Part shown: positions 33,667-45,725 of the stretch, piece after piece | Numbering within the stretch: position 1 is the first letter of the stretch | How the letters are laid out: each line of letters begins with the position of its first letter | DNA from: Streptomyces sp. NBC_00461 | GTDB lineage: Bacteria > Actinomycetota > Actinomycetes > Streptomycetales > Streptomycetaceae | NCBI RefSeq assembly: GCF_036013935.1 | Contig: NZ_CP107902.1 | Span: forward strand, 8,403,001 to 8,467,000 | DNA length: 64,000 nucleotides | Direction of reading: 5' to 3' | Program-made: the position numbers and the translations under genes | The notes under the pieces: model-generated | Seen by the model: only the letters and a program-made list of their open reading frames with translations | What the model was told of the DNA's origin: nothing | Database searches by the model: none

Positions 33667-34632
33667 TCACCGGCCGTGGTGCAGCAGCCAGCCCCGCCAT
33701 GCCGACTCGACCATCTCGCGCACCCCGCGCCGGGCGGTCCAGCCCAGCTCCTCGGCGGCCAGGGCGGCGGAGGCGACCGCGCGGGGCGCGTCCCCCGGGC
33801 GGCGTGCCTCGACGAGGGGCGGCCTGCGGTCGCCGCTGACCTCGCCGATGACGGAGATCAGCTCGCGGACGGAGACGCCCTCGCCGCGCCCGATGTTCAC
33901 CGTGAGGTCACCACTGCGGTCGGCGAGCCGCCGGGCCGCCGCCAGATGCGCCTCGGCCAGGTCGGCGACATGGATGTAGTCGCGGACGCACGTGCCGTCC
34001 GGCGTCGGATAGTCGTCGCCGAAGATCCTGGGGGCCTCGTCCCGGGTGAGCCGGTCGAAGACCATGGGCACGATGTTGAAGACGCCCGTGTCGGCCAGCT
34101 CGGGCGCGGCCGCCCCCGCCACGTTGAAGTAGCGCAGGCAGACCGTCGAGATGCCGTGCGCCCGCCCCGTCGCCCGGACCAGCCACTCGCCGGTGAGCTT
34201 GGTCTCGCCGTACGGGTTCACCGGCGCGCACGGGGTGTCCTCCGTGATCAGGTCGACGTCCGGGTTGCCGTAGACGGCCGCCGACGAGGAGAACAGGAAC
34301 TTCCTGATCCCGGCCTCCGCGACCGTCTCGAGGAGCGTGGCGAGACCGCCGACGTTCTCCCGGTAGTAGCGGGTGGGCTGCGCCACGGACTCGGCGACCT
34401 GCTTGCGCGCCGCGAGGTGGACGACGCCACTCACGCCGTACTCGGCGAAGACCCGCTTCAGCAGGTCGCCGTCGTGCGACGAGCCCTCGACGAGCGGGAC
34501 GCCCGCGGGCAGTCGTGCGGCGAATCCGGCCGAGAGGTCGTCGAGCGCCACGACGCGCTCCCCGGCGTCGGTCATGGCCCGCACCACATGGGCCCCTATG
34601 TATCCCGCTCCGCCTGTGATCAGCCATGTCAT
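33667..34632 (-). CDS. galE: UDP-glucose 4-epimerase
   Basis: The 321-residue short-chain dehydrogenase-fold enzyme interconverts UDP-glucose and UDP-galactose. Visible: TWLITGGAGYIGAHVVRAMT (NAD motif GxxGxxG), VVHLAARKQVAESV, FLFSSSAAVYGNPD (catalytic Ser), NPYGETKLTGEWL (YxxxK), RYFNVAGA, CVRDYIHVADLA. TAGGGT (34641-34646, minus strand) is 8 nt before the ATG. It lies beside, and is divergent from, the phosphodiester polymer/lipid cluster, so UDP-Gal or a related sugar may feed the glycosyltransferase there; that link is inference. Confidence 0.95.
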   Translation of the reverse strand: MTWLITGGAGYIGAHVVRAMTDAGERVVALDDLSAGFAARLPAGVPLVEGSSHDGDLLKRVFAEYGVSGVVHLAARKQVAESVAQPTRYYRENVGGLATLLETVAEAGIRKFLFSSSAAVYGNPDVDLITEDTPCAPVNPYGETKLTGEWLVRATGRAHGISTVCLRYFNVAGAAAPELADTGVFNIVPMVFDRLTRDEAPRIFGDDYPTPDGTCVRDYIHVADLAEAHLAAARRLADRSGDLTVNIGRGEGVSVRELISVIGEVSGDRRPPLVEARRPGDAPRAVASAALAAEELGWTARRGVREMVESAWRGWLLHHGR

Positions 34633-34911: not shown

Positions 34912-36702
34912 TTGTCGACCGCCATCCTCACCGGTCAGCCGGTCCCCGGATCGTCGATCGAGGGTGATCTGCGGTCCCTCGGCTTCGACGTACGGGTCGC
35001 CGCCGACGCCGCCGATGCCGAGACGCTCCTCGCCCAGGTTCCGAGCGACCAGCGGGTCGCCGTGGTCGACGCCCGCTTCGTGGGCCACCTGCACGCACTG
35101 CGCCTCGGTCTCACCGACCCCCGCTTCCCGCTCGCCGCGATCCCGGGCGCCGTCACGGCCCAGGCGGCCGGCCGCCAGGCCCTGACCCGCGCGATGGCCC
35201 GCGACAACTCCGCGGGCGGCGGTACGGCGGTCGCCGTGGACAGCCTCGCCGACCGCATGGTCACCGCCCTCGACGCCGACGGCGCCGGCGTCCACCGCCC
35301 CGAGCTGGGCAGCCTGGTCGCCGAGGTCCCGGCCGACCCGCAGGCCCGCAACGAGGCACGGCAGGCCGTGGCGAACGTCGACGAGGAGGCCGTACGCCTG
35401 AAGTCGGCCGTGAAGTCCCGCGACGGCTTCTTCACCACGTTCTGCATCAGCCCGTACTCGCGCTACCTGGCCCGCTGGTGCGCCCGCCGGGGCCTGACCC
35501 CGAACCAGGTCACCACCGCCTCCCTGCTCACCGCGCTGATCGCGGCGGGCTGCGCGGCCACCGGCACCCGCGTCGGCTTCGTCGCGGCCGGGATCCTGCT
35601 GATCTGCTCGTTCGTCCTGGACTGCACCGACGGCCAGCTCGCCCGCTACTCCCTGCAGTACTCCACGCTCGGCGCCTGGCTCGACGCCACCTTCGACCGC
35701 GCCAAGGAGTACGCCTACTACGCGGGCCTCGCGCTGGGAGCGGCCCGGGGCGGCGGTGACGACGTATGGGCGCTCGCTCTCGGCGCCATGATCCTGCAGA
35801 CCTGCCGGCACGTCGTCGACTTCTCCTTCAACGAGGCGAACCACGACGCCACCGCCAACACCAGCCCCACCGCGGCGCTCTCCGACAAGCTGGACAGCGT
35901 CGGCTGGACGGTGTGGGTACGGCGCATGATCGTGCTCCCGATCGGCGAGCGCTGGGCGATGATCGCGGTCCTCACCGCCGTCACGACCCCGCGCATCACC
36001 TTCTACGTCCTGCTCGCCGGCTGCGCCTTCGCGGCGACGTACACCACGGCCGGGCGGGTGCTGCGCTCGCTGACGCGCAGGGCGCAGCGCACGGACCGGG
36101 CGGCGCAGGCGTTGGCGGACCTCGCGGACAACGGCCCGCTCGCCTCCCTCGTGGCGCGTGCCACCCGCGTCCGCCTCGGCGCCCCGCTGCTGGTGGCGAC
36201 GGCCGGGACCGCTGTCCTCGCCGTGTCCCTCTTCTCCGGCGTGACCTGGGCGCCCGTCGCGGGCGCCGTCGTCTACACCGTCACCGCCGGTCAGGCCCTG
36301 TACCGCCCCCTCAAGGGCGCCCTCGACTGGCTGGTCCCGCCGCTGTTCCGGTTCGCCGAATACGGCACCGTCCTGGTCCTCGCGGCCAAGGCGGACGTGA
36401 ACGGCGCCCTCCCTGCGGCTTTCGGGCTGGTGGCTGCCGTCGCCTACCATCACTACGACACGGTGTACCGCATCCGCGGCAACGCCGGAGCGCCCCCGGC
36501 CTGGCTGGTGCGCGCCATCGGGGGGCACGACGGGCGGACGCTGCTCGTCACCGTTCTGGCCGCGGTCCTCACCGCCTCGCAGTTCAAGGTCGCGCTCACG
36601 GCGCTCGCCGTGGCCGTCGCCCTGCTGGTGCTCGTCGAGAGCATCCGCTTCTGGGTGTCCGCTGGGGCGCCCGCCGTACACGATGAAGGAGAACCCGCAT
36701 GA
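34912..36702 (+). CDS. CDP-alcohol phosphatidyltransferase-family protein (DUF5941-type)
   Basis: The 596-residue protein has a soluble N-terminal domain of about 150 residues (STAILTGQPVPGSSIEGDLR; later VVDARFVGHLHALRLGLTDP), which I cannot assign. It is followed by a CDP-alcohol phosphotransferase domain with the full D-x2-DG-x2-AR-x8-G-x3-D-x3-D signature (DCTDGQLARYSLQYSTLGAW then LDATFD, near residue 225-250), and further membrane helices to about 590. The enzyme should transfer a phospho-alcohol from a CDP-alcohol to an acceptor. TTG 34912 follows AGGGAG. Its last codon overlaps the next ATG, so it heads the operon. Confidence 0.88.
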   Translation: MSTAILTGQPVPGSSIEGDLRSLGFDVRVAADAADAETLLAQVPSDQRVAVVDARFVGHLHALRLGLTDPRFPLAAIPGAVTAQAAGRQALTRAMARDNSAGGGTAVAVDSLADRMVTALDADGAGVHRPELGSLVAEVPADPQARNEARQAVANVDEEAVRLKSAVKSRDGFFTTFCISPYSRYLARWCARRGLTPNQVTTASLLTALIAAGCAATGTRVGFVAAGILLICSFVLDCTDGQLARYSLQYSTLGAWLDATFDRAKEYAYYAGLALGAARGGGDDVWALALGAMILQTCRHVVDFSFNEANHDATANTSPTAALSDKLDSVGWTVWVRRMIVLPIGERWAMIAVLTAVTTPRITFYVLLAGCAFAATYTTAGRVLRSLTRRAQRTDRAAQALADLADNGPLASLVARATRVRLGAPLLVATAGTAVLAVSLFSGVTWAPVAGAVVYTVTAGQALYRPLKGALDWLVPPLFRFAEYGTVLVLAAKADVNGALPAAFGLVAAVAYHHYDTVYRIRGNAGAPPAWLVRAIGGHDGRTLLVTVLAAVLTASQFKVALTALAVAVALLVLVESIRFWVSAGAPAVHDEGEPA

Positions 36703-37451
36703 TCGGCCTCGTGCTGGCGGCCGGCGCCGGACGGCGTCTGCGCCCCTACACCGACAGCCTTCCCAAGGCTCTGGTGCCGGTGGGCCCCGCGGGCATAGAG
36801 GGCGAGCCCACGGTTCTCGACCTGACGCTCGGCAACTTCGCCGAGATCGGGCTGACCGAGGTCGCGATCATCGTCGGCTACCGCAAGGAGGCCGTGTACG
36901 AGCGCAAGGCGGCCCTGGAGCAGAAGTACGGTCTCAAGCTCACCCTCATCGACAACGACAAGGCCGAGGAGTGGAACAACGCCTACTCCCTGTGGTGCGG
37001 CCGTGACGCCCTCAAGGACGGCGTGATCCTCGCCAACGGCGACACCGTGCACCCGGTCTCCGTCGAGCGGACGCTGCTCGCCGCCCGCGGCGACGGCAAG
37101 AAGATCATCCTCGCCCTCGACACCGTGAAGTCGCTGGCGGACGAGGAGATGAAGGTCGTCGTCGATGCCGAGAAAGGCATGACGAAGATCACCAAGCTGA
37201 TGGACCCGGCCGAGGCGACCGGCGAGTACATCGGCGTCACCCTCATCGAGGGCGACGCCGCCCCCGAACTGGCCGACGCCCTGAAGGCGGTCTGGGAGAC
37301 CGACCCGCAGCAGTTCTACGAGCACGGGTACCAGGAGCTGGTGAACCGCGGCTTCCGGATCGATGTGGCGCCGATCGGCGACGTCAAGTGGGTCGAGATC
37401 GACAACCACGACGACCTCGCCAAGGGACGGGAGATCGCGTGCCAGTACTGA
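36699..37451 (+). CDS. Nucleotidyltransferase, phospho-alcohol cytidylyltransferase-like
   Basis: The 250-residue protein opens MIGLVLAAGAGRRLRPYTDS then LPKALVPVG, the nucleotidyltransferase Gx(G/A)xRLxPxT-PK signature. It has NDKAEEWNNAYSLWCGRDAL and GVILANGDTVHP, features shared with LicC-type phosphocholine and inositol-phosphate cytidylyltransferases rather than sugar-nucleotide enzymes. It would produce the CDP-alcohol used by the two flanking phosphotransferases. The ATG overlaps the upstream stop (ATGA at 36699), and its 3' end overlaps the next gene by 13 nt. The real alcohol is not known. Confidence 0.85.
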   Translation: MIGLVLAAGAGRRLRPYTDSLPKALVPVGPAGIEGEPTVLDLTLGNFAEIGLTEVAIIVGYRKEAVYERKAALEQKYGLKLTLIDNDKAEEWNNAYSLWCGRDALKDGVILANGDTVHPVSVERTLLAARGDGKKIILALDTVKSLADEEMKVVVDAEKGMTKITKLMDPAEATGEYIGVTLIEGDAAPELADALKAVWETDPQQFYEHGYQELVNRGFRIDVAPIGDVKWVEIDNHDDLAKGREIACQY

Positions 37452-38500
37452 CCCGGCTCATCCCCTCACCCGTCGTCGTGGACATCCGCCCGGGTGCCCT
37501 CGACGATCTCGCGTGCGTGCTGGCCGACGAGCGGATCTCGCAGTCGGGCAAGCTCGCCATCGCCGTCAGCGGCGGTTCCGGTGCCCGGCTGCGTCAGCGG
37601 CTGGAGCCGACGTTGCCCGGCGCCACCTGGTTCGAGGTCGGCGGCGGCACGCTCGACGACGCCATCCGCCTGGCCGGCGACATGAAGGCCGGGCACTACG
37701 ACGCGGTCGTGGGACTCGGCGGCGGCAAGATCATCGACTGCGCCAAGTTCGCCGCGGCGCGCGTGGGCCTGCCGCTGGTCGCCGTACCGACGAACCTCGC
37801 GCACGACGGCCTGTGCTCCCCGGTCGCGACGCTCGACAACGACGCGGGCCGCGGCTCCTACGGTGTGCCCAACCCGATAGCGGCCGTCATCGACCTCGAC
37901 GTGATCCGTGAGGCCCCGGTGCGGTTCGTGCGCGCGGGCATCGGCGACGCGATCTCCAACATCAACGCGATCGCGGACTGGGAGCTCGCCAACCGCGTCA
38001 ACGGTGAGAAGATCGACGGGCTCGCGGCCGCGATGGCCCGCCAGGCGGGCGAGGCGGTGCTGCGGCACCCGGGCGGGGTCGGCGACAACCACTTCCTCCA
38101 GGTGCTCGCCGAGGCACTGGTCCTCACGGGCGTCGCGATGTCGATCTCGGGTGACTCGCGCCCCGCCTCGGGCTCCTGCCACGAGATCAACCACGCCTTC
38201 GACCTGCTCTACCCCAAGCGCGCCGCAAGCCACGGCGAGCAGTGCGGCCTCGGCGCCGCCTTCGCGATGTACCTGCGCGGAGCCCACGAGGAGTCGGCCT
38301 ACATGGCCGAGGTGCTGCGCCGGCACGGGCTTCCGGTGCTGCCGGAGGAGATCGGCTTCACGGTGGACGAGTTCGTCCGCGCCGTGGAGTTCGCCCCGCA
38401 GACCCGGCCCGGCCGCTACACGATCCTCGAACACCTCGACCTGAAAACCAACCAGATCAAGGACACCTACGCCGACTATGTCAAGGCCATCGGTAGCTGA
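37439..38500 (+). CDS. sn-glycerol-1-phosphate dehydrogenase-like (COG0371) oxidoreductase
   Basis: The 353-residue protein belongs to the dehydroquinate-synthase-like/iron alcohol dehydrogenase fold. VGLGGGKIIDCAKFAAAR gives the NAD(P) binding site; PTNLAHDGLCSPVATLDN and SGDSRPASGSCHEINHAFDL with His give the metal site seen in archaeal and Bacillus (AraM) G1P dehydrogenases. In those enzymes DHAP is reduced to sn-glycerol-1-phosphate, the stereochemistry of archaeal lipids. GTG 37439 overlaps the nucleotidyltransferase. Other polyol-phosphate substrates are possible because this family is diverse. Confidence 0.85.
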   Translation: MPVLTRLIPSPVVVDIRPGALDDLACVLADERISQSGKLAIAVSGGSGARLRQRLEPTLPGATWFEVGGGTLDDAIRLAGDMKAGHYDAVVGLGGGKIIDCAKFAAARVGLPLVAVPTNLAHDGLCSPVATLDNDAGRGSYGVPNPIAAVIDLDVIREAPVRFVRAGIGDAISNINAIADWELANRVNGEKIDGLAAAMARQAGEAVLRHPGGVGDNHFLQVLAEALVLTGVAMSISGDSRPASGSCHEINHAFDLLYPKRAASHGEQCGLGAAFAMYLRGAHEESAYMAEVLRRHGLPVLPEEIGFTVDEFVRAVEFAPQTRPGRYTILEHLDLKTNQIKDTYADYVKAIGS

Positions 38501-39257
38501 ACTCCGCCCGGTCGTCCACCCCGCGGGGGTCAAGGACCGGCGCAGCGGTGAGCACTGGATGGGACGCCTCTACATGCGTGAGGTGTCCCTGCGGATCGAC
38601 CGCTACCTGGTGAACACCAGGGTCACCCCCAACCAGCTCACGTACCTGATGACCGTGTTCGGTGTGCTCGCGGCCCCGGCCCTGCTGGTGCCGGGGGTCC
38701 TGGGTGCGGTGCTCGGTGTGGTGTGTGTCCAGATGTACCTGCTGCTGGACTGCGTCGACGGCGAGATCGCGCGCTGGAAGAAGCAGTACTCGCTGAACGG
38801 CGTCTACCTGGACCGGGTCGGCGCCTACCTCACCGACGCCGCCGTCCTCGTCGGCTTCGGGCTGCGCGCCGCCGACCTGTGGGGCAGCGGCCGTATCGAC
38901 TGGCTGTGGGCCTTCCTCGGCACCCTGGCCGCGCTCGGGGCGATCCTGATCAAGGCCGAGACCGACCTGGTCGGCGTCGCCCGGCACCAGGGCGGGCTGC
39001 CGCCGGTCAAGGAGGCCGCCGCCGAGATGCGCACCTCCGGCATGGCGCTGGCCCGCCGCGCCGCCGCCGCTTTCAAGTTCCACCGGCTGATCCTCGGCAT
39101 CGAGGCGTCGCTGCTGATCCTGGTCCTGGCGATCGCGGACCAGCTCCGCGGCGACCTGTTCTTCTCCCGGCTCGGCGTCGCGGTGCTGGCCGGCATCGCA
39201 CTCCTGCAGACCCTGCTGCACCTGGTGTCGATCCTCGCGTCGAGCAGGCTGAAGTGA
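38478..39257 (+). CDS. Second CDP-alcohol phosphatidyltransferase-family protein
   Basis: The 259-residue membrane protein contains DCVDGEIARWKKQYSLNGVY then LDRVGAYLTD near residues 91-120, the DG-AR-G-D-D active site of CDP-alcohol phosphotransferases. It has about six hydrophobic segments and begins SRPSVAELRPVVHPAGVKDR. It overlaps the dehydrogenase gene by 23 nt, so translation is coupled. Two paralogous phosphotransferases in one operon suggest two successive transfers, or transfer to two acceptors. The GT-A glycosyltransferase follows directly. Confidence 0.88.
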   Translation: MSRPSVAELRPVVHPAGVKDRRSGEHWMGRLYMREVSLRIDRYLVNTRVTPNQLTYLMTVFGVLAAPALLVPGVLGAVLGVVCVQMYLLLDCVDGEIARWKKQYSLNGVYLDRVGAYLTDAAVLVGFGLRAADLWGSGRIDWLWAFLGTLAALGAILIKAETDLVGVARHQGGLPPVKEAAAEMRTSGMALARRAAAAFKFHRLILGIEASLLILVLAIADQLRGDLFFSRLGVAVLAGIALLQTLLHLVSILASSRLK

Positions 39258-40135
39258 GCGCCATGAAGGTCGGCGCGGTGATCATCACCATGGGCAACCG
39301 CCCCGACGAGCTCCGCGCCCTCCTCGACTCGGTCGCCAAGCAGGACGGCGACCGTGTCGAGGTCGTCGTGGTCGGCAACGGCTCGCCGGTCCCGGACGTC
39401 CCCGAGGGTGTCCGCACCATCGAGCTGCCCGAGAACCTCGGCATCCCCGGAGGCCGCAACGTCGGCATAGAGGCCTTCGGCCCCAGCGGCCGCGACGTCG
39501 ACGTGTTGATGTTCCTCGACGACGACGGCCTCCTCGCGGGCCACGACACCGCCGAGCTGTGCCGCCGGGCCTTCGAGACCGACCACGAACTCGGCATCAT
39601 CAGCTTCCGCATCGCCGACCCCGAGACGGGGGTCACCCAGCGCCGCCACGTCCCCCGGCTGCGCGCGGCCGACCCGATGCGCTCCTCCCGGGTCACCACC
39701 TTCCTCGGCGGCGCCAACGCCGTCCGCACCCAGGTCTTCGCCGAAGTCGGCGGCCTCCCGGACGAATTCTTCTACGCCCACGAGGAAACCGACCTGGCAT
39801 GGCGGGCTCTCGACGCGGGCTGGATGATCGACTACCGGTCCGACATGGTGCTGTACCACCCCACGACCGCGCCCTCGCGGCACGCGGTCTACCACCGCAT
39901 GGTCGCCCGCAACCGCGTCTGGCTGGCCCGCCGCAACCTCCCCGCGCTGCTCGTCCCGGTCTACCTCGGGGTCTGGTTGCTGCTCACCCTCGTTCGCCGC
40001 CCCTCGCGGCCCGCCCTCAGGGCGTGGTTCGGCGGGTTCCGCGAAGGCTGGACCACCTCGTGCGGACCGCTCAGGCCCATGAAGTGGCGTACGGTGTGGC
40101 GGCTGACCCGACTGGGCCGGCCCCCGGTGATCTGA
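39254..40135 (+). CDS. Family 2 glycosyltransferase
   Basis: The 293-residue GT-A fold protein: VGAVIITMGNRPDELRALLD at the N-terminus, VEVVVVGNGSPVPDVPEG, ENLGIPGGRNVGIEA, the metal site VLMFLDDDGLLAG near residue 82, and EFFYAHEETDLAWRALDAGW (the ED box). A hydrophobic helix lies near 245 (LLVPVYLGVWLLLTLV), and the C-terminus is basic. It would add a sugar to a membrane-bound phospho-acceptor. GTG 39254 (GTGA overlap with the previous stop) is chosen; ATG 39263 is a close alternative. Confidence 0.88.
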   Translation: MSAMKVGAVIITMGNRPDELRALLDSVAKQDGDRVEVVVVGNGSPVPDVPEGVRTIELPENLGIPGGRNVGIEAFGPSGRDVDVLMFLDDDGLLAGHDTAELCRRAFETDHELGIISFRIADPETGVTQRRHVPRLRAADPMRSSRVTTFLGGANAVRTQVFAEVGGLPDEFFYAHEETDLAWRALDAGWMIDYRSDMVLYHPTTAPSRHAVYHRMVARNRVWLARRNLPALLVPVYLGVWLLLTLVRRPSRPALRAWFGGFREGWTTSCGPLRPMKWRTVWRLTRLGRPPVI

Positions 40136-40210
40136 CAAGCTCGTTCCTGTTCACGAGGTCTTGCCCTTGCCCGCACGGGCTGCGCATCCCGAAGACGAAA
40201 GTTTCCACCA

Positions 40211-41140
40211 GTGAGTGAGTCAACGCACGACGGCACGGTCACGCTGAGCGTGGCCGTATCGCCCGACGAGGGCCTCGCGGCGCGGCAGCTCGCCGCCAAG
40301 TACGGGCTGACCGTGAGCGGCGCCCGGCCCTCCCTCGTCGAGTACGTCCGCCAGCTCTGGGACCGGCGTCACTTCATCCTCGCCTTCTCGCGGGCGAAGC
40401 TGACCGCTCAGTACAGCCAGGCCAAGCTCGGCCAGCTCTGGCAGGTGGCGACCCCGCTGCTGAACGCGGCCGTCTACTTCTTCATCTTCGGCGTCATCCT
40501 GAACGCCAGCCGGGGCATGTCGAAGGACGTCTACATCCCGTTCCTGGTCACGGGCGTCTTCGTGTTCACCTTCACTCAGAGCTCGGTGATGGCCGGGGTA
40601 CGGGCGATCTCCGGCAACCTCGGCCTGGTCCGCGCCCTGCACTTCCCGCGCGCCTCGCTGCCGATCTCCTTCGCGCTGCAGCAGCTCCAGCAGCTGCTGT
40701 TCTCGATGATCGTGCTGTTCGCCGTGGCCATCGGCTTCGGCAGCTTCCCGGACCTGTCCTGGCTGCTGATCGTGCCGGTACTCGCGCTGCAGTTCCTGTT
40801 CAACACCGGCCTGGCGCTGATCATGGCCCGCGCGGGCGCCAAGACCCCGGACCTGGCCCAGCTCATGCCGTTCATCATGCGTACGTGGATGTACGCGTCC
40901 GGCGTGATGTTCTCGATCCCCATCATGCTGGCCGACAAGCCGCAGTGGGTGGCGACCGTCCTGCAGTGGAATCCGGCCACCATCTACATGGACCTGATGC
41001 GCTTCTCGCTCATCGAGGACTATGGCGCCGAGAACCTTCCCGATCACGTCTGGGCGGCCGCGGGCGGCTGGGCCGCGCTGTGTGCCCTCGGCGGCTTCGT
41101 GTACTTCTGGAAGGCGGAGGAGAGGTACGGCCGTGGCTGA
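40211..41140 (+). CDS. ABC-2 type permease (TagG/Wzm-like polymer exporter)
   Basis: The 309-residue protein has a cytoplasmic N-terminus (SPDEGLAARQLAAKYGLTVS) and then about six TM helices. The Wzm/TagG pattern is visible: FSRAKLTAQYSQAKLGQLWQ (amphipathic entry helix), ATPLLNAAVYFFIFGVILNA, and the C-terminal half with SGVMFSIPIMLADKPQWVAT and QWNPATIYMDLMRFSL. Wzm/TagG exporters move lipid-linked teichoic acids or O-antigen-like chains. It forms a pair with the next gene, whose GTG overlaps its stop. A 75-bp gap separates it from the glycosyltransferase gene, possibly with a weak promoter. Confidence 0.9.
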   Translation: MSESTHDGTVTLSVAVSPDEGLAARQLAAKYGLTVSGARPSLVEYVRQLWDRRHFILAFSRAKLTAQYSQAKLGQLWQVATPLLNAAVYFFIFGVILNASRGMSKDVYIPFLVTGVFVFTFTQSSVMAGVRAISGNLGLVRALHFPRASLPISFALQQLQQLLFSMIVLFAVAIGFGSFPDLSWLLIVPVLALQFLFNTGLALIMARAGAKTPDLAQLMPFIMRTWMYASGVMFSIPIMLADKPQWVATVLQWNPATIYMDLMRFSLIEDYGAENLPDHVWAAAGGWAALCALGGFVYFWKAEERYGRG

Positions 41141-41924
41141 GCAGAACCCCGAGCAACCGCAGGGCGAGCGGATCCCCACCGTCATCGCCGACGAGCTGCA
41201 CATCGTCTACCGCGTCCATGGCGCGAAGACCGGCAAGGGCAGCGCCACCGCCGCCCTCAGCCGCATCATCAAGCGCGGCGAAGAGCGCGGCGTGCGCAAG
41301 GTGCACGCCGTCAAGGGAGTCTCCTTCGTCTCCTACCGCGGCGAGGCCGTCGGCCTGATCGGCTCCAACGGTTCCGGCAAGTCGACCCTGCTGCGCGCCA
41401 TCGCCGGTCTGCTCCCGGCAGAGAAGGGGCGCGTCTACACCAACGGCCAGCCCTCGCTGCTGGGCGTGAACGCGGCCCTGATGAACGACCTGACGGGCGA
41501 GCGGAACGTCATATTGGGCGGGCTCGCCATGGGAATGTCCCGCGAGCAGGTCAGGGAGCGCTACCAGGAGATCGTCGACTTCTCGGGCATCAACGAGAAG
41601 GGCGACTTCATCACCCTCCCGATGCGCACCTACTCCTCCGGCATGGCGGCCCGTCTGCGCTTTTCCATCGCCGCCGCCAAGGACCACGACGTCCTGATGA
41701 TCGACGAGGCGCTGGCCACCGGTGACCGCAAGTTCCAGAAGCGCTCCGAGGAACGCATCCGCGAGCTGCGCAAGGAGGCCGGCACGGTGTTTCTCGTCAG
41801 TCACAACAACAAGTCGATCCGCGATACCTGCGACCGCGTCCTGTGGCTGGAACGCGGCGAGCTGCGCATGGACGGGCCTACCGAAGAGGTCCTCAAGGAG
41901 TACGAGAAGTTCACGGGCAAGTAG
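41133..41924 (+). CDS. ABC exporter ATPase (TagH/Wzt-like)
   Basis: The 263-residue protein has the teichoic acid/O-antigen type ABC domain. HAVKGVSFVSYRGEAVGLIG precedes Walker A SNGSGKSTLLRAI near residue 80, then LLGVNAALMNDLTGERNVIL, PMRTYSSGMAARLRFSIAAA (signature with YSSGM), Walker B VLMIDEALATGD, and VFLVSHNNKSIRDTCDRVLW. It lacks the C-terminal carbohydrate-binding domain of long Wzt proteins, as TagH-like short forms do. GTG 41133 overlaps the permease stop. A strong terminator follows the gene. Confidence 0.92.
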   Translation: MAEQNPEQPQGERIPTVIADELHIVYRVHGAKTGKGSATAALSRIIKRGEERGVRKVHAVKGVSFVSYRGEAVGLIGSNGSGKSTLLRAIAGLLPAEKGRVYTNGQPSLLGVNAALMNDLTGERNVILGGLAMGMSREQVRERYQEIVDFSGINEKGDFITLPMRTYSSGMAARLRFSIAAAKDHDVLMIDEALATGDRKFQKRSEERIRELRKEAGTVFLVSHNNKSIRDTCDRVLWLERGELRMDGPTEEVLKEYEKFTGK

Positions 41925-41960
41925 TCCACCCCGACCTGGACGGACTGGCCAGGACGCTTC

Positions 41961-41997
41961 GCAGGGCCCCGCCGGAACTGACCCGGCGGGGCCCTGC
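41961..41997 (+). terminator. 15-bp perfect hairpin terminating the exporter cluster
   Basis: GCAGGGCCCCGCCGG pairs with CCGGCGGGGCCCTGC across AACTGAC. A further GACGC/GCGTC flank extends the pairing. It lies 37 nt past the ATPase stop and isolates it from the hopanoid operon. Confidence 0.88.
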
Positions 41998-42000
41998 GTC

Positions 42001-42249: not shown

Positions 42250-42315
42250 ATGGCTACGGAAACTCCCCAGCTGTGCGCAGCATGTGCCGTCCCCGCCCCG
42301 GGTAGTCACCGGTGA
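42250..42315 (+). CDS. 21-codon leader ORF with CAAC motif before hpnC
   Basis: ATG 42250 opens a 21-residue frame starting MATETPQLCAACAVPAPG. Its TGA (42313-42315) overlaps the hpnC GTG (42312-42314) as GTGA. GGGAG lies 12 nt upstream, so the peptide may be translated and couple to hpnC. The two Cys with AA between them could bind metal or simply arise from coding chance. Nothing more can be said about function. Confidence 0.45.
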   Translation: MATETPQLCAACAVPAPGSHR

Positions 42316-43214
42316 CGGGAACCGGCAGGCCGCACACCGGTGACCCGGAGCGCGGCACGCTCGACAAGGCCGCGGGTGAGAACTTCCCCGTGGCGCCGTT
42401 CTTCCTGCCCAAGGCCTGGCGCGCCGACCTCATGGCCGTGTACGGCTTCGCCCGCCTCGTCGACGACATCGGCGACGGCGATCTGGCCCCCGGCGGCGCC
42501 GACGCGCGTCTGCTCGGCGTGTCGGCCGAGGAGGCCGAGAACCGCCTGCTGCTCCTGGACGCCTTCGAGACGGACCTGAACCGGGTCTTCGACTCGACCC
42601 CGCGCCACCCCCTGCTGCGCCGCCTCCAGCCGACCGTCCGGCGCCACACGCTGACCCCCGAGCCCTTCCGCGGCCTGATCGCCGCCAACCGCCAGGACCA
42701 GCTCGTCAGCCGCTACGAGACCTACGACGACCTGCTCGCGTACTGCGAACTGTCGGCCAACCCCGTGGGCCGCCTCGTCCTCTCCGTCACCGGCACCTCG
42801 ACCCCCGAGCGCATCCGCCTCTCGGACGCGATCTGCACCGCCCTCCAGATCGTCGAACACCTCCAGGACGTCGCCGAGGACCTCGGCCGCGACCGCATCT
42901 ACCTGCCCGCCGAGGACATGAAGCAGTTCCATGTGCAAGAGGCGGATCTCGCCACGCCGACCGCGGGCGCATCGTTGCGCGCACTGGTCGCATACGAAGC
43001 GCAACGCGCCCGCGATCTCCTGAATGAAGGCGCCCCCCTGGTGGGTAGCGTCCACGGCAGGTTGAAGTTGCTGCTCGCCGGGTTCGTGGCGGGGGGAAGG
43101 GCGGCGATCCGTGCGATCGCCGCCGCGGAATACGACGTACTTCCCGGTCCGCCCAAGCCCGGCAAGGTCCAGCTGCTGCGCGAGGTGGGCGTGACTCTGC
43201 GAGGAGAGGGGTGA
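42312..43214 (+). CDS. hpnC: Hydroxysqualene synthase HpnC
   Basis: The 300-residue squalene/phytoene synthase-fold enzyme converts presqualene diphosphate to hydroxysqualene. Motifs: GENFPVAPFFLPKAWRADLM, the first Asp-rich box FARLVDDIGDGDLAPGG, LIAANRQDQLVSRYETYDDL, CELSANPVGRLVLSV, and the second Asp-rich box HLQDVAEDLGRDRIYLPAED. It opens the HpnCDE route from FPP to squalene. GTG 42312 overlaps a leader ORF, and the 3' end overlaps hpnD (GTGA at 43211). Confidence 0.93.
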   Translation: MTGTGRPHTGDPERGTLDKAAGENFPVAPFFLPKAWRADLMAVYGFARLVDDIGDGDLAPGGADARLLGVSAEEAENRLLLLDAFETDLNRVFDSTPRHPLLRRLQPTVRRHTLTPEPFRGLIAANRQDQLVSRYETYDDLLAYCELSANPVGRLVLSVTGTSTPERIRLSDAICTALQIVEHLQDVAEDLGRDRIYLPAEDMKQFHVQEADLATPTAGASLRALVAYEAQRARDLLNEGAPLVGSVHGRLKLLLAGFVAGGRAAIRAIAAAEYDVLPGPPKPGKVQLLREVGVTLRGEG

Positions 43215-44161
43215 TCCGGACCGTGGAGTCGGAACAACACGTGTCCGCACCGGTACTCGCCGCCTACAGCTACTGCGAGGCCGTCACCGGACAGCAGGCA
43301 CGTAACTTCGCGTACGGCATCAGGCTGCTGCCGACGCCCAAGCGTCGCGCCATGTCGGCCCTGTACGCGTTCTCCAGGCGCGTCGACGACATCGGCGACG
43401 GCGCGCTGGCGGTCGACGTCAAGGCGGCACGACTCGAGGACACCCGGGCGCTGCTGGCCCGGGTGCGCGAGGGGGTGGTCGCCGAGGACGACATCGACCC
43501 GGTGGCCGTCGCCCTCACCCACACTGCCGAGACCTTCCCGGTCCCGCTCGACGGACTGGACGAGCTGATCGACGGCGTGCTGATGGACGTCCGCGGTGAG
43601 ACCTACGAGACCTGGGACGACCTGAAGGTCTACTGCCGCTGTGTCGCGGGCGCCATCGGGCGGCTCTCGCTCGGCGTGTTCGGCACGGAACCGGGAGCGC
43701 GCGGCGCCGAGCGCGCGCCGGAGTACGCCGACACGCTGGGGCTGGCGCTGCAGCTCACCAACATCCTCAGAGACGTCCGCGAGGATGCCGAGGGTGGTCG
43801 TACGTATCTGCCCTCCGACGACCTCGCGAAATTCGGGTGCTCGGCCGGGTTCAACGGGCCGACCCCGCCGGAGGGCTCCGACTTCGCGGGCCTCGTGCAC
43901 TTCGAAGTGCGACGGGCCCGCGCTCTTTTCGCCGAGGGCTATCGGCTCCTCCCCATGCTCGACCGGCGCAGCGGCGCGTGCGTCGCCGCCATGGCCGGCA
44001 TCTACCGCCGTCTGCTCGACCGCATCGAGCGCGACCCCGAGGCCGTGCTGCGGGGCCGGGTCTCGCTGCCCGGGCGGGAGAAGGCGTACGTCGCCGTCCG
44101 CGGCCTGTCCGGGCTGGACGCCCGGCATGTGACGCGGAGGACCATCAGGAGGCGCGCCTGA
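43211..44161 (+). CDS. hpnD: Presqualene diphosphate synthase HpnD
   Basis: The 316-residue enzyme condenses two FPP to presqualene diphosphate. It has the same fold as HpnC, with YSYCEAVTGQQARNFAYGIR, FSRRVDDIGDGALAVDV (first Asp box), LDELIDGVLMDVRGETYETW, YCRCVAGAIGRLSLGVFG and LALQLTNILRDVREDAEGGR (second Asp box) then TYLPSDDL. Start GTG 43211 overlaps the hpnC stop. Its stop overlaps the next ATG as TGATG. It probably acts first in the HpnCDE sequence. Confidence 0.93.
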   Translation: MIRTVESEQHVSAPVLAAYSYCEAVTGQQARNFAYGIRLLPTPKRRAMSALYAFSRRVDDIGDGALAVDVKAARLEDTRALLARVREGVVAEDDIDPVAVALTHTAETFPVPLDGLDELIDGVLMDVRGETYETWDDLKVYCRCVAGAIGRLSLGVFGTEPGARGAERAPEYADTLGLALQLTNILRDVREDAEGGRTYLPSDDLAKFGCSAGFNGPTPPEGSDFAGLVHFEVRRARALFAEGYRLLPMLDRRSGACVAAMAGIYRRLLDRIERDPEAVLRGRVSLPGREKAYVAVRGLSGLDARHVTRRTIRRRA

Positions 44162-44301
44162 TGGACAAACAGGGCCAAGGTGATTCCACCGACGAAAAGC
44201 GGCACGCAACCCTCCATGCAGGGACGGCGTCCCTGACTGCAACGGCCTGCTGTTGTGCACGGTTCAACCACGGCGGTCGCGCAGGGGAGGATGCACGATG
44301 A
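44161..44301 (+). CDS. 46-residue Cys-rich micro-protein inside the hopanoid operon
   Basis: This frame starts MDKQGQGDSTDEKRHATLHA and continues GTASLTATACCCARFNHGGR to its end at AGEDAR. Its ATG overlaps the hpnD stop (TGATG at 44159) and its TGA overlaps the hpnE ATG (ATGA at 44298), so it is coupled on both sides, which is strong evidence of translation. I recall small DUF-numbered relatives (possibly DUF6380) in other Streptomyces hopanoid clusters, but am not sure. The CCC triplet could bind metal or form a disulphide. Function unknown. Confidence 0.75.
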   Translation: MDKQGQGDSTDEKRHATLHAGTASLTATACCCARFNHGGRAGEDAR

Positions 44302-45725
44302 GCGACGTCACGCGGTCCGACGATTCGCCCGCGGATCCGGCGGGGCGCTCCGCAAGGGACGCCGTCGTGATCGGTGGCGGGCTCGCCGGCATCACCGCCG
44401 CGCTCGCGCTCGCCGACGCCGGAGTGCGTGTCACCCTGGTCGAGGGCAGGCCGAGACTCGGTGGCCTGGCCTTCTCGTTCCAGCGCGGCGAGCTGACCGT
44501 CGACAACGGACAGCATGTGTACCTGCGCTGCTGCACCGCCTACCGCTGGTTCCTCGACCGCATCGAGGGGACGGCGCTGGCGCCGCTGCAGGATCGTCTC
44601 GACGTGCCCGTACTCGATGTCGACAAGCCCGAGGGGCGACGGCTCGGCAGGCTGAGGCGCGACGCGCTGCCCGTGCCCCTGCATCTGGGGCGCAGCCTCG
44701 CTACGTATCCGCATCTCTCCCTAGCCGAGCGGGCCAGAGTGGGGCGTGCCGCGCTCGCGCTCAAGGGGCTCGACCTCGCCGATCCGACCCTGGACACCCA
44801 GGACTTCGGCAGCTGGCTGACCGCGCACGGTCAGTCGGCGCGTGCCGTCGAGGCCCTGTGGGACCTGGTCGGGGTCGCCACTCTCAACGCGGTCGCGGGC
44901 GACGCCTCGCTGGGGCTCGCCGCGATGGTGTTCAAGACCGGTCTGCTGTCCGACCCGGGCGCGGCCGACATCGGATGGGCGCACGTCCCGCTGGGCGAAC
45001 TGCATGACCGTCTCGCCCGCAAGGCGCTCGACTCCGCGGGCGTCCGTACCGAGGTCCGTACACGCGTCACCTCCATCTCTACTGACGAAAACGGGCGCCT
45101 GCGCGTTCAGGTTCCCGGCGAGGAGCTCCGAGCGGACACGGTGGTGCTCGCCGTACCCCAGCGCGAGGCCCACGATCTTCTGCCGGCAGGCGCCCTCGAC
45201 GCCCCTGACCAGCTGCTCGACATCGACACCGCGCCGATCCTCAACGTGCACGTCGTCTACGACCGGAAGGTGCTGAACCAGCCCTTCTTCGCGGCCCTCG
45301 GCACCCCCGTGCAGTGGGTCTTCGACCGCACCGACGCCTCAGGCCTGCGCGAAGGCCAGTACCTCGCGCTGTCCCAGTCGGCCGCCCACGACGAGATCGA
45401 CGAGCCGGTCGCCGCGCTGCGCGAGCGCTATCTGCCCGAGCTGGAGCGGCTGCTGCCGGGCACCCGCGACGCAGAGGTGAAGGACTTCTTCGTGACCAGG
45501 GAGCGCACGGCGACGTTCGCTCCGACCCCAGGCGTCGGGCGGCTGCGGCCCGGCGCCCGCACCAGGACCCCGGGCCTGTACCTGGCCGGAGCGTGGACCG
45601 CCACAGGGTGGCCCGCGACCATGGAGAGTGCGGTCCGCAGTGGCGTGAGTGCGGCGGACGCCGCGCTGAGCGCCCTGGGCCGGCCCCGCCCGAGTCACCT
45701 CTTCGACTTCGAGGAGGCGGCCTGA
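44298..45725 (+). CDS. hpnE: Hydroxysqualene dehydroxylase HpnE
   Basis: The 475-residue flavoprotein reduces hydroxysqualene to squalene. The N-terminal dinucleotide motif AVVIGGGLAGITAALALADA, then RPRLGGLAFSFQRGELTVDN with GQHVYLRCC, and the C-terminal LYLAGAWTATGWPATMESAV then RSGVSAADAALSA, mark the phytoene-desaturase-like HpnE group. The ATG at 44298 overlaps the micro-protein stop. The next gene begins 60 bp later or, by an alternative start, overlaps the stop. Confidence 0.92.
   Translation: MSDVTRSDDSPADPAGRSARDAVVIGGGLAGITAALALADAGVRVTLVEGRPRLGGLAFSFQRGELTVDNGQHVYLRCCTAYRWFLDRIEGTALAPLQDRLDVPVLDVDKPEGRRLGRLRRDALPVPLHLGRSLATYPHLSLAERARVGRAALALKGLDLADPTLDTQDFGSWLTAHGQSARAVEALWDLVGVATLNAVAGDASLGLAAMVFKTGLLSDPGAADIGWAHVPLGELHDRLARKALDSAGVRTEVRTRVTSISTDENGRLRVQVPGEELRADTVVLAVPQREAHDLLPAGALDAPDQLLDIDTAPILNVHVVYDRKVLNQPFFAALGTPVQWVFDRTDASGLREGQYLALSQSAAHDEIDEPVAALRERYLPELERLLPGTRDAEVKDFFVTRERTATFAPTPGVGRLRPGARTRTPGLYLAGAWTATGWPATMESAVRSGVSAADAALSALGRPRPSHLFDFEEAA

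Follow-up and report, generated by a model that had tools for sequence, protein, structure and literature searches.

What does a bacterium build with a relative of the enzyme that makes sn-glycerol-1-phosphate (G1P), a hallmark of archaeal membranes, when its gene lies between two CDP-alcohol phosphotransferase (CDP-AP) genes and upstream of a TagGH-type exporter? The question is raised by seven consecutive forward-strand genes, here called A to G, at positions 34912-41924 of the stretch of Streptomyces sp. NBC_00461 DNA that we analysed (64,000 nt of contig NZ_CP107902.1, positions 8,403,001 to 8,467,000; hereafter the window). We read the cluster, with moderate confidence, as a second, teichoic-acid-type glycopolymer locus. 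This reading draws on its gene content and order, wide conservation, paralogy and co-location with TagF and galE.

The exporter genes provide the first line of evidence. F (40211..41140, + strand; PF01061, ABC2 permease) is a TagG-like permease and G (41133..41924, + strand; PF00005) a TagH-like ATPase, nearest to TagH at 178 bits for a cut-off of 320. The window genome (G000; 10.37 Mb, single contig) carries a second set at 3.928-3.943 Mb: three TagF genes (3.928-3.935 Mb) and, 4-9 kb further along, galE2, a TetR regulator (PF00440) in divergent orientation, TagG2 and TagH2. TagG2 is 67% identical to F over 283 residues and TagH2 82-83% identical to G, while galE2 shares 69% identity over 320 residues with the window galE. 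It is by this paralogy (67%/82%), the NCBIfam cut-offs not being reached, that F and G are recognised as the TagGH-type exporter of a wall teichoic acid (WTA) locus, and they would flip a lipid-linked product outward. Four of five other same-genus second copies (L187-L190) also have TetR-TagG-TagH near TagF, the fifth (L191) having TagH alone, and galE2 recurs in one of the five; in a further member of the genus (G171) the single close TagH is the cluster's own. The arrangement corresponds to tagR-tagG-tagH of S. roseosporus, where loss of tagG from the TetR-controlled pair delayed and reduced sporulation (no spores by scanning electron microscopy) and led to plasmolysis; the mutant was rescued by tagG of B. 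subtilis (PMC10269677). A TagH tree places the second copies from G000, G128 and G023 among the Streptomyces cluster copies and those from G107/G300 and G307 elsewhere; exchange or late duplication seems likely, inner supports being mostly low (85/86). Nocardiopsidaceae F/G form a long branch in this tree and are perhaps another exporter.

A second line comes from two genomes of the same order and another family (G311 and G315), in which the module shares one locus with TagF, galE and TagGH. In G311, A is divergent and a single strand holds TagF (1006 residues, PF04464 315 bits), GT4, galE, B to E (E at 63.5% identity over 296 residues) and the TagG/TagH pair. The G315 genes that share one strand are A, galE, B to E and the TagG/TagH pair, beside TagF (957 residues) and GT4. 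Neither genome gave a TagD match even at 1e-3, and the full-length IspD-SDR fusion, presumably of the kind that makes CDP-ribitol, is absent from both; B is therefore the candidate donor maker for their TagF. More broadly, no TagD above the TIGR01518 cut-off was found in 21 genomes of the order, and the IspD-SDR fusion is present in 11 of 25 genomes (E ≤4.3e-188, two with an internal TAG), the best match in the other 14 being 3.1e-29 or weaker. TagF-type polymerases may draw on the same donor in this related family, and possibly in Streptomyces, as the shared locus suggests. An exported polyol-phosphate glycopolymer, which the preliminary description of this DNA had proposed, is supported both by the exporter and galE paralogs at the TagF locus and by these shared loci with TagF, galE and TagGH.

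Several loci add to the picture of donor makers. In G204, TetR-TagG-TagH adjoins a full-length IspD-SDR fusion (L194; G204:C1, 2.189-2.192 Mb), which suggests that the TetR-linked TagGH type might serve a ribitol arm there and the present module a glycerol arm. The same genome has A with DUF5941 beside a TagGH-like pair (L142:9441-13036), 0.9 Mb from its B-C-CDP-AP set. Two Streptosporangiales loci (L090:5988-6734 and L073:6218-6967) show an IspD-like nucleotidyltransferase beside the module, below both the ispD and the ribitol cut-offs; in Actinomadura the neighbours of the module also include a GDPD phosphodiesterase.

What, then, would the donor be? C (37439..38500, + strand; Fe-ADH_2) belongs to the glycerol-1-phosphate dehydrogenase family (EgsA/AraM). 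Its best NCBIfam match is the G1P dehydrogenase model PRK00843 at 244 bits, the next being glycerol dehydrogenase at 86 bits (a gap of 158), and it matches PDB 4rgq at E 1.5e-42. The segments GxGDxxSN, SGxxH and HGEQ are kept and align with 4rgq; their Asp-His-His we take to be the metal ligands of solved G1P dehydrogenases. These positions, D169/H247/H263, are near-invariant in our alignment A1, and in the nine rows of alignment A4 H247/H263 and the flanking GxG/SN positions are invariant. Since the score lies under the PRK00843 cut-off, C is filed as a family relative and not as a proven G1P dehydrogenase; a Streptomyces EgsA/AraM homolog was included in a published G1P dehydrogenase alignment (PMC5059525; papers are cited by PubMed Central number, each for the available part of its text). 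C would convert dihydroxyacetone phosphate to G1P, judging by its family. B (36699..37451, + strand; PF00483, NTP_transferase) is a LicC-like nucleotidyltransferase whose profile (11 rows, some distant) matches LicC at 111.9 bits, PntC at 100.5 and then 4jd0 at 79.1; the top matches are CTP:phosphocholine and phosphonate cytidylyltransferases, i.e., enzymes of small non-sugar substrates. By its relatives, B may be a CTP:glycerol-phosphate cytidylyltransferase, which would join G1P and CTP into a G1P-series CDP-glycerol, thereby taking the place of TagD.

The earlier assignment of a G1P dehydrogenase followed by a cytidylyltransferase accordingly stands at family level, through the motifs kept in C and the nearness of B to LicC/PntC, and falls short where C stays below the curated archaeal cut-off (244 against 413 bits). 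The substrate of C may differ from that of the G1P dehydrogenases because of this score and because a Cys occupies the position of the 4rgq Glu in the SGxEH motif. We regard it as quite improbable that C acts on another phosphorylated or free polyol and that the product of B is a different CDP-alcohol or a phosphonate derivative: PntC, a phosphonate enzyme, is indeed the second-best profile match of B, but C is far closer to G1P dehydrogenase than to the other iron-alcohol-dehydrogenase models listed by NCBIfam, and no phosphonate gene occurs among the scanned genes around C. The known bacterial user of G1P is PcrB, the partner of AraM in making heptaprenylglyceryl phosphate. An AraM-PcrB-type route was rejected, as PcrB had no match in 21 genomes of the order.

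Relatives of these two enzymes also occur in other settings. A Nitratidesulfovibrio plasmid (L144, 11983-13032) carries a 34% relative of C between SpoIIE-type phosphatase and radical SAM genes; it was of no help as a clue to function, having neither B nor a CDP-AP beside it. In a Nitriliruptoraceae metagenome-assembled genome (L085, 8343-12164), C has no B match and adjoins a short-chain dehydrogenase and an APH/choline-kinase-like gene. A distant B-C pair in L039, scanned with Pfam, lies with DUF4012, a PF01663 phosphodiesterase and a polyprenyl sugar transferase, another use of both enzymes; gene lengths in L040, L041, L043, L044, L047 and other f9-family loci resemble those of L039.

Which enzyme would spend the donor? 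A (34912..36702, + strand; 596 residues, TTG start; Pfam CDP-OH_P_transf and DUF5941) comprises a degenerate cytidylyltransferase-like head (residues ~1-156), a CDP-AP core with the full motif (~165-393) and DUF5941 (~395-596). All four aspartates of the motif, D1xxD2GxxAR...GxxxD3xxxD4, are invariant in 33 rows; among 66 matched segments the motif is found in 45, always with Asp, and not in the other 21. The structure model (pLDDT 88.4) matches AF2299, IspD and CHPT1/CEPT1, and its residues 169-587 align with CHPT1/CEPT1 at 12-13% identity, matches that Foldseek rates weak. The model suggests an enzyme of two bundles that resembles choline phosphotransferase and carries a degenerate cytidylyltransferase head. 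Tandem units are on record for a few bacterial CDP-APs, and the class-II motif has a His/Glu pair, G2ExxD3HxxD4 (PMC10182977); A reads GAWLDATFD and has neither residue at those places. In Streptomycetaceae, DUF5941 (window 36094-36699) and the CDP-AP core form one protein, and in other lineages DUF5941 is a separate adjoining gene (loci compared: L032, L033, L143, L065 and L087). As a sequence homolog of the CDP-AP core it was rejected, the hhalign match being non-significant. The model of the A fragment is poor, being built from 19 rows that are all Streptomycetaceae or labelled as such, and the DUF5941 half alone, which was used, carries the same warning.

The shape of A bears on an LtaS-free lipoteichoic acid (LTA) route, in which A would take G1P from CDP-G1P and pass it to an acceptor of glycolipid or diacylglycerol type, D and E would extend or decorate the chain, and F/G would export a lipid-anchored poly(glycerol-1-phosphate). 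We hold this to be unlikely: TagGH exporters are known for polyprenyl-linked WTA, F/G are close to the TagGH pair of the TagF locus, and the predicted shape gives no acceptor, the CHPT1/CEPT1 matches being weak. What it does have in its favour is that the aligned CHPT1/CEPT1 are lipid-acceptor enzymes (class II, with a polar CDP donor; PMC10156783), that in B. subtilis the glycerol phosphate of LTA is of the sn-1 series and that of WTA sn-3 (PMC7086022), and that S. hygroscopicus has a poly(glycerol phosphate) LTA and actinobacteria have no clear LtaS orthologs (PMC3196553). The same paper poses actinobacterial LTA biosynthesis as an open question, names Agromyces as another LTA maker and prefers a route common to teichoic acid.

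AF2299 and IPCT-DIPPS, which A and D match best in structure and profile, also recall a phosphodiester small molecule or an inositol lipid, with A and D making a soluble or phospholipid phosphodiester that is then glycosylated and exported. The nearest NCBIfam models (archaetidylinositol phosphate synthase, PIP synthase and the DIPP fusion, all below cut-off) point the same way, but a TagGH-type exporter, a GT2 and co-location with TagF suit a polymer better, and we find such a product highly improbable.

D (38478..39257, + strand; Pfam CDP-OH_P_transf) is the second CDP-AP and belongs to a subfamily with an altered motif. Across 55 of 55 orthologs the fourth motif aspartate is replaced, by His in 38 and Ala in 17 and never keeping Asp; the window D has Ala, and all 17 Ala forms belong to Streptomyces records. 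This aspartate is the putative base, in a CDP-AP motif described as absolutely conserved (PMC4634129). E (39254..40135, + strand; PF00535), a GT2 glycosyltransferase starting at GTG 39254 or ATG 39263, has an LDDDG segment invariant in 13 rows, and its profile gives weak matches to solved GT2s, the TagF of 3l7j among these.

Returning to the teichoic-acid-type reading, A, perhaps with D, would transfer glycerol phosphate onto a membrane-bound acceptor, given the resemblance of its model to lipid-acceptor enzymes, and E might add a sugar, conceivably galactose supplied through GalE; for every step of this pathway, substrate, direction and product are what we infer. A bolder formulation is possible, though as a whole we consider it rather doubtful: Streptomyces and many other actinobacteria would use CDP-sn-glycerol-1-phosphate to make a poly(glycerol phosphate) polymer for their surface, the donor being supplied by the archaeal-type G1P dehydrogenase and the LicC-like transferase and the polymer started on a lipid by the CHPT1-like two-bundle A, with DUF5941 as a dead second CDP-AP unit and with D, carrying His or Ala for the catalytic aspartate, in an auxiliary role. 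TagD and LtaS would both be replaced, and the polymer would be sn-1, inverted with respect to Bacillus wall teichoic acid.

A number of observations weigh against the glycopolymer reading. Its support is gene association and not biochemistry. Besides the score of C and its Glu-to-Cys change, D lacks the catalytic fourth aspartate, and TagF (PF04464) is absent from the window cluster, the three copies in G000 lying elsewhere. Galactan exporters are matched as well, a galactan export permease being the best NCBIfam match of F (50 of 380 bits) and the galactan exporter reaching 159 of 400 bits with G. No F or G was found near 18 Streptosporangiales loci, and no D, E or F in 16 Micromonosporaceae loci. 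The G311 and G315 assemblies comprise ~430 and ~420 contigs, so that absences there are not final. Weaker TagD-family matches occur in 9 of the 21 genomes, G000 included (two, at 60 and 34 bits for a cut-off of 165), so a TagD-like route in Streptomyces is possible. S. roseosporus has, besides its TetR-controlled tagG-tagH, a second pair, orf659/orf658, which is 60.5%/73.4% identical and constitutive (PMC10269677). The tagG mutant had its phenotype despite orf659/orf658, which speaks against the two pairs being fully redundant, and if orf659/orf658 is the pair of this cluster, the two exporters would be non-interchangeable.

How far does the module extend beyond this genome? At E 1e-3 some match to C is found in 156 of 296 Actinomycetota genomes, and at E ≤3e-93 in 14: nine of the same genus (G000 included) plus G204, G086, G183, G108 and G045, the next match being 1.8e-56. 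DUF5941 is present in 13 of the 296 genomes, each of them one of those 14. Named organisms among the 120 best matches of C are Streptomyces, and a further search found C in 13 of 13 same-genus genomes (four also in the 296-genome survey) and in 20 of 24 genomes in all. Neighbours were counted by tblastn (hits of at least 45 bits) in named actinobacterial loci, namely the top 80 out of 557 candidates that were confirmed. Contig ends truncate many of these loci, which makes the numbers of misses upper bounds, and some N-terminal starts in alignment A5 are guesses. B lies on the strand of C within 10 kb in 78 of these 80 loci, the exceptions being L085 and L095. The 32 Streptomycetaceae loci, including L120 labelled Streptosporangium, have A in 26, B in 32, D, E and F in 31 each and G in 30. 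Corresponding counts are A 15, B 18, D 16, E 16, F 0 and G 0 for Streptosporangiales (18 loci); A 2 and B, D, E, F and G 4 each for Nocardiopsidaceae (4 loci); and A 1, B 8, D 4, E 2, F 4 and G 3 for other groups (10 loci). Micromonosporaceae (16 loci) have B in 16, a weak A-like match in 10 and a weak G in 2, with D, E and F at 0 and a short CDP-AP after C, Pfam-confirmed in L069. B, C, D and E recur together in many genera down to ~44-50% identity, and the cluster is therefore more than a chance assembly.

The gene layout is compact, with overlaps of 4 nt (A/B), 13 nt (B/C), 23 nt (C/D) and 8 nt (F/G); D and E overlap by 4 nt provided that E starts at GTG 39254, and 75 nt separate E and F. 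The seven same-strand genes lie at the positions first described, and Pfam and NCBIfam bear out their families. The single terminator said to close the set corresponds to a hairpin at 41960..41998 (+ strand) with a perfect 16-bp stem (arms 41960-41975 and 41983-41998) and a 7-nt loop (fold z -6.3; 0 of 200 shuffles equal); it has no T run and hence went unlisted by a consensus terminator scan. The same scan found no sigma-70 promoter.

Outside the module, two squalene/phytoene synthases and an amine-oxidase-type oxidoreductase (42312..45725, + strand) follow the gene order annotated as hpnC, hpnD and hpnE in S. fungicidicus (NZ_CP023408). Of 29 Streptomycetaceae loci for which 6 kb of downstream sequence is available, 28 have HpnC/HpnD relatives, against none of 36 others. 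A hopanoid function of the cluster was rejected, the adjacency being seen in Streptomycetaceae alone, and the hopanoid link drawn earlier looks incidental. On the other side, the divergent galE (33667..34632, - strand) encodes a UDP-glucose 4-epimerase (TIGR01179 323 bits, above cut-off). Among the 26 Streptomycetaceae loci that include 6 kb of upstream sequence, 12 have it upstream, as do none of 36 others, and it thus looks optional in Streptomycetaceae. A galactose substituent, suggested from this adjacency, loses ground by these counts and gains some from the galE inside the locus in G311 and G315.

Part of this is already in print: clusters of CDP-AP, GT2 and nucleotidyltransferase syntenic with crtB, tagH, tagG and araM, labelled teichoic acid by gene names (PMC13118837), and a second TagGH pair (PMC10269677). 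New here are the loci shared with TagF and galE, the argument from the missing TagD, the D subfamily lacking the fourth aspartate and the build of A; a literature search, with most subscription journals outside its coverage, found no functional study of A to E and no paper on DUF5941. If the proposal is true, a Streptomyces operon whose C is present in every same-genus genome searched gives bacterial G1P a concrete use in a surface polymer, helps explain how glycerol-phosphate polymers are built without the usual enzymes, and lends DUF5941 a structural meaning. The chirality of the polymer is directly testable via GlpQ, a stereospecific enzyme (PMC7086022), and the aspartate-free D subfamily challenges a motif called absolutely conserved (PMC4634129).

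Among known systems, Bacillus-type tag/tar WTA loci share with the cluster a TagGH-type exporter, a GT2 and the CDP-alditol logic, and in G311 and G315 TagF and galE too. We know of no CDP-APs in tag/tar loci, whereas they are present here, and in place of a TagD above cut-off the donor would come from a G1P dehydrogenase homolog and a LicC-type transferase. B. subtilis AraM with PcrB is alike in having a bacterial G1P dehydrogenase homolog and differs in that the order of the present cluster has no PcrB match (21 genomes). AF2299 and the A. fulgidus IPCT-DIPPS resemble A in the cytidylyltransferase-like domain ahead of the CDP-AP core, but A has a shortened, degenerate head and DUF5941, and the likely nucleotidyltransferase is a separate protein, B; from eukaryotic CHPT1/CEPT1, A differs by the missing class-II His/Glu (GAWLDATFD) and by its 12-13% identity. 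Caulobacter CpgD, by its description, is likewise a cytidylyltransferase for a C3 phosphate (phosphoglycerate) that supplies a surface lipid, in a different pathway (PMC12275187). The S. roseosporus tagR-tagG-tagH and orf659/orf658 parallel the TetR-tagG-tagH near TagF of the window genome (3.94 Mb) and the presence of a second TagGH pair in both, the functionally tested pair being the TetR-linked one (PMC10269677).

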